NCBI GenBank assembly: GCA_026386845.1 | Contig: JAPLMW010000076.1 | Span: forward strand, 1-34,054 | DNA length: 34,054 nucleotides | Origin: Phycisphaerae bacterium | GTDB taxonomy: Bacteria; Planctomycetota; Phycisphaerae; Sedimentisphaerales; UBA12454 | Direction of reading: 5' to 3' | Shown: positions 2,197 to 26,772 of the stretch, one piece after another | Position numbering within the stretch: position 1 is the stretch's first letter | Layout: each line of letters starts with the position of its first letter | The notes under the pieces: generated by a model | What the model was told of the DNA's origin: nothing | Seen by the model: the letters and a program-made list of their open reading frames with translations, nothing else | Database searches by the model: none | Translations under genes and position numbers: made by a program

Positions 2197-2257
2197 TGGT
2201 TCGACGCGGCGGAGGGTTTTACCCTCCGCCTTGCTCACCATTTTTAGCGTCGAACCA
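2197..2257 (+). repeat. Nested REP-like palindrome after tRNA-Gln
   Basis: The outer arms are TGGTTCGACGC (2197-2207) and GCGTCGAACCA (2247-2257), an exact 11-bp inverted repeat. Inside is a second hairpin, GGCGGAGGG (2208-2216), loop TTTTA, CCCTCCGCC (2222-2230), then TTGCTCACCATTTTT. The GTGGTTCGAC core and the GCTCACCA word both recur in the two repeats inside the dinG-like gene at about 26.0 and 26.4 kb. The inner hairpin may also end the tRNA transcript, although its T tract is displaced. Confidence 0.75.
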
Positions 2258-24753: not shown

Positions 24754-26772
24754 TTGATTGACTTTAAGCGGCAGGATGGTTTCAACGAAGAATGGATTTT
24801 TGGTCCTGCGGGGCTTTTAGCAAAGAATTGGCCTGGATACGAGGACAGGCCTCAGCAGAGGCAAATGGCAAAAGCGGTGCAGAACGCCTTAAAAGAGCGT
24901 TTTCATCTTGCGGTTGAGGCGGGAACGGGGGTCGGTAAAAGTTTTGCATATCTGATACCTGCAATAGAAGCGGCAAAACAGCAAAAGTGCAGGATTCTTA
25001 TAAGTACCTATACAATTACCCTTCAGGAACAGTTGATAAACAAAGACATTCCATTTCTGGCTCGCCTGCTGGAAGACTGTTTTACCGCCTGTCTTGCAAA
25101 GGGACGGAATAACTTTATCTGCCTGAGAAGACTTGAGTTTGCCGTAAGGATGCAGCAGGGTCTTTTTGACAGCGATGCCGCTGTGCTTGTGCACCTGAGC
25201 AGCTGGGCAAAACAGAGCGCCGACGGCTCGCTCAGCGATATAGGTTTTGTGCCGCCCTGGCAGGTATGGCATTCGGTTATGAGCGAACACGGCAATTGCC
25301 GCGGCAGAAAATGCCCCCACTTCGATAAGTGTTTTTATTGGCGCAGCCGCAGACGGCTCGAAACCGCCGATATTATCGTAGCGAACCACGCGCTGCTGTT
25401 CAGCGATCTGTTATTAAGGCAGGAGGGTGTTTCAATACTGCCTGATTATCGTTTTGTAATTATTGATGAGGCACATAATATTGAACATGTTGCCGAAGAG
25501 CACTTTGGACTGGATATAAGCGACAGGCGGGTATCGTTTCTTCTGCAGGGCTTGTATAATCAGAAGACAAAAAGGGGCCTTCTCGCGAACCCGCAGCACA
25601 GCGAAACGGTGAGTCTTGTAAATTCCTGCCGAAATGCCGCGGACGATTTTTTCAAATCAGTCGGACGGTGGCTTGCGACAGACAAAGGCAACGGCAGGAC
25701 AAGACCGGGTTTTGTGGCTGATTGTCTTACCGAGCCGGTTAAAAAGCTCAGGCTTGCCCTTACAAAAATCGCCAATCAAATCAAAGATTTTGACGAGCAA
25801 TTCGAGTTTTTGCGTTTTGCCGGCCTGCTGACAGCGGTTGAAGCTGACCTGCAGGATTTTCTTGCGCACAAAAACGACAATGACATTTACTGGGTCGAAT
25901 CGGAAGAAAACAGGAGAAAAACGTTAATGCTCAAAAGCGCCCCGATAAACCCCGCGGAACACATAAAAAAGTATCTGCTTGATAATTTTGAATCTATAAT
26001 ATTTACAAGCGCGACTCTTTGTATCGCTTCATCCTGTGGTGAGCCGGGTCGAACCACCCCGGACGATGAAGGGTTCGGTTTTTTTGCCGAACGTATCGGA
26101 CTCGAAAAATTTGAGCGGTTAAAACTTGGTTCGCCTTTCGATTATCAAAGGCAGGTAACGATGTATATCGAGCCGGACCTGCCCGAGCCGAACGATAAAG
26201 GTTTTGCAGAAGCGGCGGCGGAAAAATTAAAGAAATACATAAAACTGACTAACGGCAGGGCATTTGTGCTGTTTACCAGCTACCAGATGCTCGATGAATT
26301 TGCCGGATTGCTTTCCGACTGGTTTGATGAAAACAATATCGAGCTGCTTATGCACGGCTCAGGGACGGACAGAGCCGAGCTTTTGAGACGGTTTAAAAGC
26401 AGTGTGGTTCGACCCGGCTTACCACAGGCAGGCAGCGTGCTTTTCGGTACGGACAGTTTCTGGCAGGGGGTGGATGTGCCGGGAGAAGCCTTGAGCAATG
26501 TTATTATTGTCAGATTGCCGTTTGCCGTTCCGACGCATCCTCTTGTTCAGGGCAGGATTGAATATATAAAGTCGCAGGGGCATAATCCTTTTTTCAGTTA
26601 TCAATTGCCGACTGCGGTTATAAAATTCAAACAGGGTTTCGGCAGACTCATAAGAAACAAAACAGATACCGGCATTGTGGTTGTGCTTGACAGCAGGATT
26701 ATACGCAAGAACTATGGCAGAGAATTCCTGGCCGCAATCGAAAAGTGCAGAGTAGAAATAGCGTGGCAATAA
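24754..26772 (+). CDS. DinG/XPD-family ATP-dependent DNA helicase
   Basis: A superfamily 2 helicase of the DinG (YoaA-like) group, 672 residues, unwinding damaged or structured DNA 5' to 3'. Motif I is EAGTGVGKSFAYLIPA; motif Ia is STYTITLQEQL. The Fe-S cluster cysteines lie in KGRNNFICLRRLEF, GNCRGRKCPHFDKCFYW. VANHALLFSD, the DEAH box IIDEAHNIEHVAEEH, FTSATLCIA, GSPFDYQRQV, LFGTDSFWQGVDVPGEAL and motif VI QGFGRLIRNKTDTG follow. TTG 24754 has GGTGAGG just upstream. Two segments are foreign to the family: SCGEPGRTTPDDEG (~426-439) after the SAT motif, and SVVRPGLPQAG (~550-560) before SVLFG. Both are encoded by copies of a palindromic repeat. The frame survives and all motifs remain, so the gene is probably functional. 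Confidence 0.92.
   Translation: MIDFKRQDGFNEEWIFGPAGLLAKNWPGYEDRPQQRQMAKAVQNALKERFHLAVEAGTGVGKSFAYLIPAIEAAKQQKCRILISTYTITLQEQLINKDIPFLARLLEDCFTACLAKGRNNFICLRRLEFAVRMQQGLFDSDAAVLVHLSSWAKQSADGSLSDIGFVPPWQVWHSVMSEHGNCRGRKCPHFDKCFYWRSRRRLETADIIVANHALLFSDLLLRQEGVSILPDYRFVIIDEAHNIEHVAEEHFGLDISDRRVSFLLQGLYNQKTKRGLLANPQHSETVSLVNSCRNAADDFFKSVGRWLATDKGNGRTRPGFVADCLTEPVKKLRLALTKIANQIKDFDEQFEFLRFAGLLTAVEADLQDFLAHKNDNDIYWVESEENRRKTLMLKSAPINPAEHIKKYLLDNFESIIFTSATLCIASSCGEPGRTTPDDEGFGFFAERIGLEKFERLKLGSPFDYQRQVTMYIEPDLPEPNDKGFAEAAAEKLKKYIKLTNGRAFVLFTSYQMLDEFAGLLSDWFDENNIELLMHGSGTDRAELLRRFKSSVVRPGLPQAGSVLFGTDSFWQGVDVPGEALSNVIIVRLPFAVPTHPLVQGRIEYIKSQGHNPFFSYQLPTAVIKFKQGFGRLIRNKTDTGIVVVLDSRIIRKNYGREFLAAIEKCRVEIAWQ
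26033..26057 (-). repeat. REP-like palindromic repeat inside dinG-like gene, copy 1
   Basis: On the minus strand it begins GTGGTTCGACCCGGCT and ends CACCACAGG (with one base of overlap between the pieces). The ends GTGGT/ACCAC pair with each other. It matches copy 2 at 24 of 25 bases in the opposite orientation. A further inverted pair, TTCATC (26028-26033) and GATGAA (26065-26070), brackets it. It encodes part of SCGEPGRTTPDDEG, in frame. Confidence 0.85.
26404..26428 (+). repeat. REP-like palindromic repeat inside dinG-like gene, copy 2
   Basis: GTGGTTCGACCCGGCT (26404-26419) followed by TACCACAGG (26420-26428). The single difference from copy 1 is T for C at 26420. The ends GTGGT and ACCAC can pair. 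It lies about 350 bases from copy 1 and inverted to it, and encodes part of SVVRPGLPQAG. Confidence 0.85.

Follow-up and report, generated by a model that had tools for sequence, protein, structure and literature searches.

The window, a stretch of 34,054 nucleotides (positions 1 to 34,054 of contig JAPLMW010000076.1 from a Phycisphaerae bacterium), carries a helicase gene in which two short palindromic repeats lie in frame. The host ORF is identified as dinG by profile, by fold and by its sequence similarity to DinG of E. coli (6fwr, E 2.7e-77). An earlier note, made from the sequence alone, had described two 25-bp copies inverted to each other, and both are real where it had placed them: the 25-mers at 26033-26057 (minus strand, GTGGTTCGACCCGGCTCACCACAGG) and 26404-26428 (plus strand, GTGGTTCGACCCGGCTTACCACAGG) are identical at 24 of 25 bases, with one mismatch. 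The length needs revision, as the repeated unit comprises 24 bp (26033-26056 and 26405-26428) and the 25th base, a G, belongs to the shared flank. The features discussed here are as follows.

24754-26772, plus strand: dinG, an XPD-like DNA helicase of 672 aa with a TTG start, which hosts both copies
26033-26056, minus strand: copy 1, a 24-nt unit reading TGGTTCGACCCGGCTCACCACAGG on the minus strand; in the dinG frame it gives (S)CGEPGRT(T), about residues 427-434, after the SAT motif
26405-26428, plus strand: copy 2, a 24-nt unit reading TGGTTCGACCCGGCTTACCACAGG; in the dinG frame it gives VVRPGLPQ, about residues 551-558, between LLRRFK and SVLFGTDSF
2197-2240, plus strand: a degenerate or compound copy, TGGTTCGAC...GCTCACCA, with its structure read by eye

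A 15-mer core allowed up to two mismatches is matched three times in the window (the third match is at 2196) and never in 100 shuffled versions. The compound copy abuts the 3ʹ end of a tRNA-Gln (2125-2197), and another hairpin lies within its loop (GGCGGAGGG/CCCTCCGCC). The compound copy is followed, within 2125-2290, by a second compound unit on the opposite strand (TCCCTCGAC...GCTCGGGA), and a small, apparently truncated GIY-YIG ORF (2300-2521) lies beside this compound repeat. An Rfam search of the window returned two tRNAs only.

Each dinG copy adds eight residues that have no counterpart in 78 aligned planctomycete DinG proteins, which bears out the earlier claim that these segments are absent from typical representatives. 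When both 24-mers are deleted in silico, the frame stays open and the protein equals its nearest relatives in length around both sites. The helicase motifs had been described as intact, and every invariant column of the DinG alignment is indeed kept in the window protein. In a structural model with a mean pLDDT of 88, both inserts fall outside helices and strands, in low-confidence stretches at residues 429-437 and 551-560 (mean 56 for the latter). The loop sequence CCG is common to the two copies and occurs in no other copy of the same subfamily (the TGG-foot subfamily, described below) listed for this genome, so one dinG copy is probably the source of the other. The post-SAT loop also carries unrelated, longer inserts in the DinG proteins of three relatives, one of which reads NHRERRGHRE... 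and is repeat-derived in appearance.

The earlier note had proposed a search of the genome and its relatives, and this search finds the repeat many times elsewhere in both. The exact TGG-foot pattern TGGTTCGACNNNGCTCACCA has 10 copies in the genome of the window and is found in 22 of 148 relatives at the level of the order, from 13 of 83 genera, whereas the same pattern reversed as a control has no match in either set. A second subfamily with a CC foot, CCTTCGACNNNGCTCAGG, is represented by 34 copies in this genome and is present in 81 of the 148 relatives; its reversed controls give none in this genome and two matches in all. Chance origin of the copies is ruled out by the shuffles and these reversed-pattern controls.

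Comparison of the copies reveals a common architecture, in which a 3-nt foot is followed by TTCGAC-NNN-GCTCA, the complementary 3-nt foot and a 4-nt tag (CAGG, CAAG or TAAA). CAGG is the most frequent tag (80 of 171 cases), ahead of TAAA, CAAG or CGGG, and foot subtypes share these tags. When only core sites outside the search seeds are considered, with three flanking bases per side, the inner, middle and outer foot bases are complementary at frequencies of 84, 86 and 78%, as against 49, 44 and 52% after shuffling. The foot pairs are compensatory, and the paired foot measures 3-4 bp. A stable hairpin formed by one unit was rejected, since a single unit folds no better than its shuffles; for the same reason, it is the compensating foot that would point to a hairpin intermediate.

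Three lines of evidence give the unit a length of 24 nt, namely eight-codon gaps in relatives, copies nested within other copies, and head-to-tail arrays. Nested copies occupy the loop of an outer copy (TTCGACT^TCGCTCA) as 24-bp insertions; for a minority, in which the outer loop is itself variable, the calculation gives 23 or 32. Arrays that repeat every 24 bp occur in a same-phylum planctomycete genome, in two viral contigs and in a plasmid gene of Treponema saccharophilum. The last encodes a class V aminotransferase with three in-frame head-to-tail 24-bp units (L569, 1502-1570) that read VGERSRNVVGERSRNADGERSRT, and the predicted junction peptides are GERSRNVVGERSRN. The Treponema units carry tags such as TCCG/ACCA in place of CAGG.

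Such arrays and nested copies, as well as sister copies with the same loop like those in dinG, could also be made during replication by local template switching or by gene conversion, neither of which would need a dedicated enzyme. However, the wide dispersal over unlinked genes, the exact 24-bp unit and the conserved tag exceed what local errors would produce, and we judge this origin rather improbable. The reading that we favour is that the palindromes probably belong to a mobile repeat that is non-autonomous, dispersed and built on a unit fixed at 24 nt.

Filled and empty sites in many genes bear directly on this reading. For proteins encoded by the genome of the window, relatives from the same family have an eight-residue gap opposite the insert in RpoN, MutS, AddB, alkaline phosphatase and an MTHFR-like protein; this is likewise so for a second site in MurF, for an oxidoreductase and, in most homologues, for a terminase-like protein. 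At the first site in MurF and the site in topoisomerase VI subunit B, the surrounding stretch varies in length, and the gap spans 7-10 and 3-8 residues, respectively. Some insertions struck one gene more than once, independently. For example, the MutS proteins of two genomes (G000 and G001) carry independent insertions a few codons apart, and a macro-domain-like protein (named by eye) was hit independently in two genera, such that each provides the empty site of the other. A copy near the N terminus of TrpG recurs with identical flanks in a different genus, and judging from these flanks it looks inherited. In one murF gene (G030), a 24-nt unit resides inside a TGTC-tagged palindrome that itself was apparently inserted in frame, which amounts to a nested in-frame insertion. 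Mobility, which the earlier note had offered only as an inference, is well supported by sequence comparison, through dispersed, nested and tandem copies together with sites that are filled in some relatives and empty in others.

The survival of the host genes follows from the unit's length being fixed at 24. The core and foot together fix a stop in one of the six frames and leave five open, and the TAAA tag adds another stop. With a length divisible by three and a fixed stop in a single frame, the unit does no more than add eight codons in most of its insertions into genes. The frames are used unequally: 31 of 41 copies in ORFs of at least 250 aa use the two frames giving GST.LTT or GE..RT, against 40% expected from the five open frames (p 4e-6, with copies that are partly non-independent). 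In the genome of the window alone, these two frames account for 11 of 14 copies (p 0.004). This bias is consistent with selection for loop-friendly peptides, and selection might thus retain insertions that encode such peptides in flexible loops. The two subfamilies also differ in where they reside in this genome: TGG-foot copies are mostly intragenic, with 11 of 14 lying well inside long ORFs, and CC-foot copies are mostly intergenic, with only 2 of 30 in such a position (p 3e-6), even though both have equal length and equally many open frames. The intragenic excess might stem from a more recent wave of TGG-foot insertion.

The octapeptides are open, in frame and maintained, and their strong frame bias might be taken to mean that they are domesticated parts of DinG and other proteins that are kept for a function. 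We consider this very unlikely. The octapeptides are absent from all other DinG proteins examined and sit in low-confidence loops, the same peptides appear in unrelated proteins, and tolerance explains the frame bias. The suggestion of domestication in the earlier note is therefore not supported.

The sites themselves offer some guidance on how a mobile repeat of this kind might move. Insertion takes place in either orientation and adds 24 bp, and orientation relative to genes is mixed. The sites lack a target-site duplication; one of 4 bp was rejected, as 8% of non-nested sites match and these are apparently tandem neighbours. Copies are found in the loops of TGTC-tagged palindromes with 8-bp stems, which fit the published CGTC description (four loci), and hairpins of the CCCCCAGT/ACTGGGGG type also hold copies in their loops. 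A stem of at least 8 bp flanks 16% of the copies in the genome of the window versus 2.4% of nearby positions, and 4% of copies versus 0.8% of nearby positions in relatives (a moderate enrichment); viral contigs show no clear excess of such stems at their copies. The genome of the window also contains a second repeated hairpin family, for example CCCCCAGT...ACTGGGGGCTAAAC, which often has a CC-foot unit in its loop (six loci).

These observations suggest a route in which the repeat would spread via a single-stranded hairpin intermediate handled by a putative enzyme acting in trans. Such an enzyme would insert the unit into single-stranded or hairpin DNA, and hairpin loops may be its preferred landing sites. 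Two candidate mobilisers were considered. GIY-YIG nucleases came into question because the small GIY-YIG ORF adjoins the copy at 2197, and were rejected on finding a copy within 500 bp at 0 of 34 loci in ten carrier genomes. The other candidate is a Y1 (RAYT/TnpA-REP) transposase that would work in trans on hairpins of single-stranded DNA, which would make the repeat an element of the REP type. A small palindrome with a 4-nt tag and a compensating stem, the lack of a target duplication, the use of loop targets and the presence of Y1 genes in 128 of the 148 relatives all agree with such a process. However, no copy lies within 500 bp of any of the 30 Y1 loci from ten carrier genomes, two carriers (G009 and G135) contain copies and yield no Y1 match, the stem is short, and the tag differs from both GTAG and CGTC. 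Y1 transposases are not supported as the mobilisers, and we regard this explanation as unlikely. About equally unlikely is an RNA intermediate, as proposed for the small dispersed repeats (SDR) of Nostoc, in which the hairpin of a transcript would serve as the template for new DNA. The size class and nesting are as in SDR, and loop targets could be RNA loops, but the mixed orientation relative to genes does not speak for a process bound to transcripts.

A broader form of the mobile-repeat reading, which we put forward tentatively and with somewhat less than even confidence, is that a codon-compatible superfamily exists in several phyla. Its members would share a 24-nt, eight-codon unit with the core TTCGAC-N3-GCTCA, would enter hairpin loops by an undescribed activity, and would spread since their length and frames spare proteins. 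A selfish repeat inside core genes (MutS, RpoN, MurF, AddB and DinG) of a probably free-living bacterium provides many filled and empty sites for studying how elements of about 24 nt, SDR-type ones included, move. The repeat also carries a warning for annotation: where predicted proteins contain peptides like GSTSLTT, CGERSRTT and VVSEVEP, these are insertions derived from the repeat and not domains.

Among known systems, the SDR elements of Nostoc punctiforme and its relatives reportedly consist of 21-27 nt units that have a shared predicted structure with compensatory changes, undergo nested insertion, have moved recently by an enzyme said to be unknown, and are confined to a cyanobacterial subgroup. 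Compared with them by description, the planctomycete repeat falls within this 21-27 nt class and has nested insertions of its own. It differs in the prominence of in-frame insertion in many core genes.

The GTAG/CGTC REPs end in a GTAG or CGTC tetranucleotide (with variants GYRG, TGTC and CCTC), have heterogeneous stems of 6-13 bp with complementary changes, are mostly extragenic, and flank their RAYT (Y1) genes (Di Nocera et al. 2013, PMC3733652). Intragenic REPs are often found in DNA repair genes (uvrA, recB, polA), sometimes twice per gene (PMC3733652). The 24-nt repeat is likewise a small palindrome with a terminal 4-nt tag, complementary stem changes and some intragenic copies, among them two in a single gene. 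However, its tag is CAGG, CAAG or TAAA, its unit is fixed at 24 nt with a foot of 3-4 bp, and no Y1 gene lies beside its copies (0 of 30 loci, 500 bp). The repeat thus falls outside the REPs by its tag, by the length of its stem and by its lack of adjoining RAYT genes.

The Rickettsia palindromic elements, to which the earlier note had likened the dinG copies, also insert as palindromes in frame in genes of unrelated function, and in this behaviour the resemblance holds. The CGTC class includes RPE-4 and RPE-6, and RPE-1 has a greater length (PMC3733652). The 24-nt repeat lacks the CGTC tag of RPE-4 and RPE-6 and is set apart by its fixed unit, its sequence (as judged from description) and its host. 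The core sequences had no relevant match in the literature searched. By analogy, therefore, the kind of element is a known one, SDR-like in form and REP- or RPE-like in its in-frame behaviour, whereas the family itself, the unit fixed at eight codons and the spread across phyla appear to be new to that literature, SDR being compared by description.
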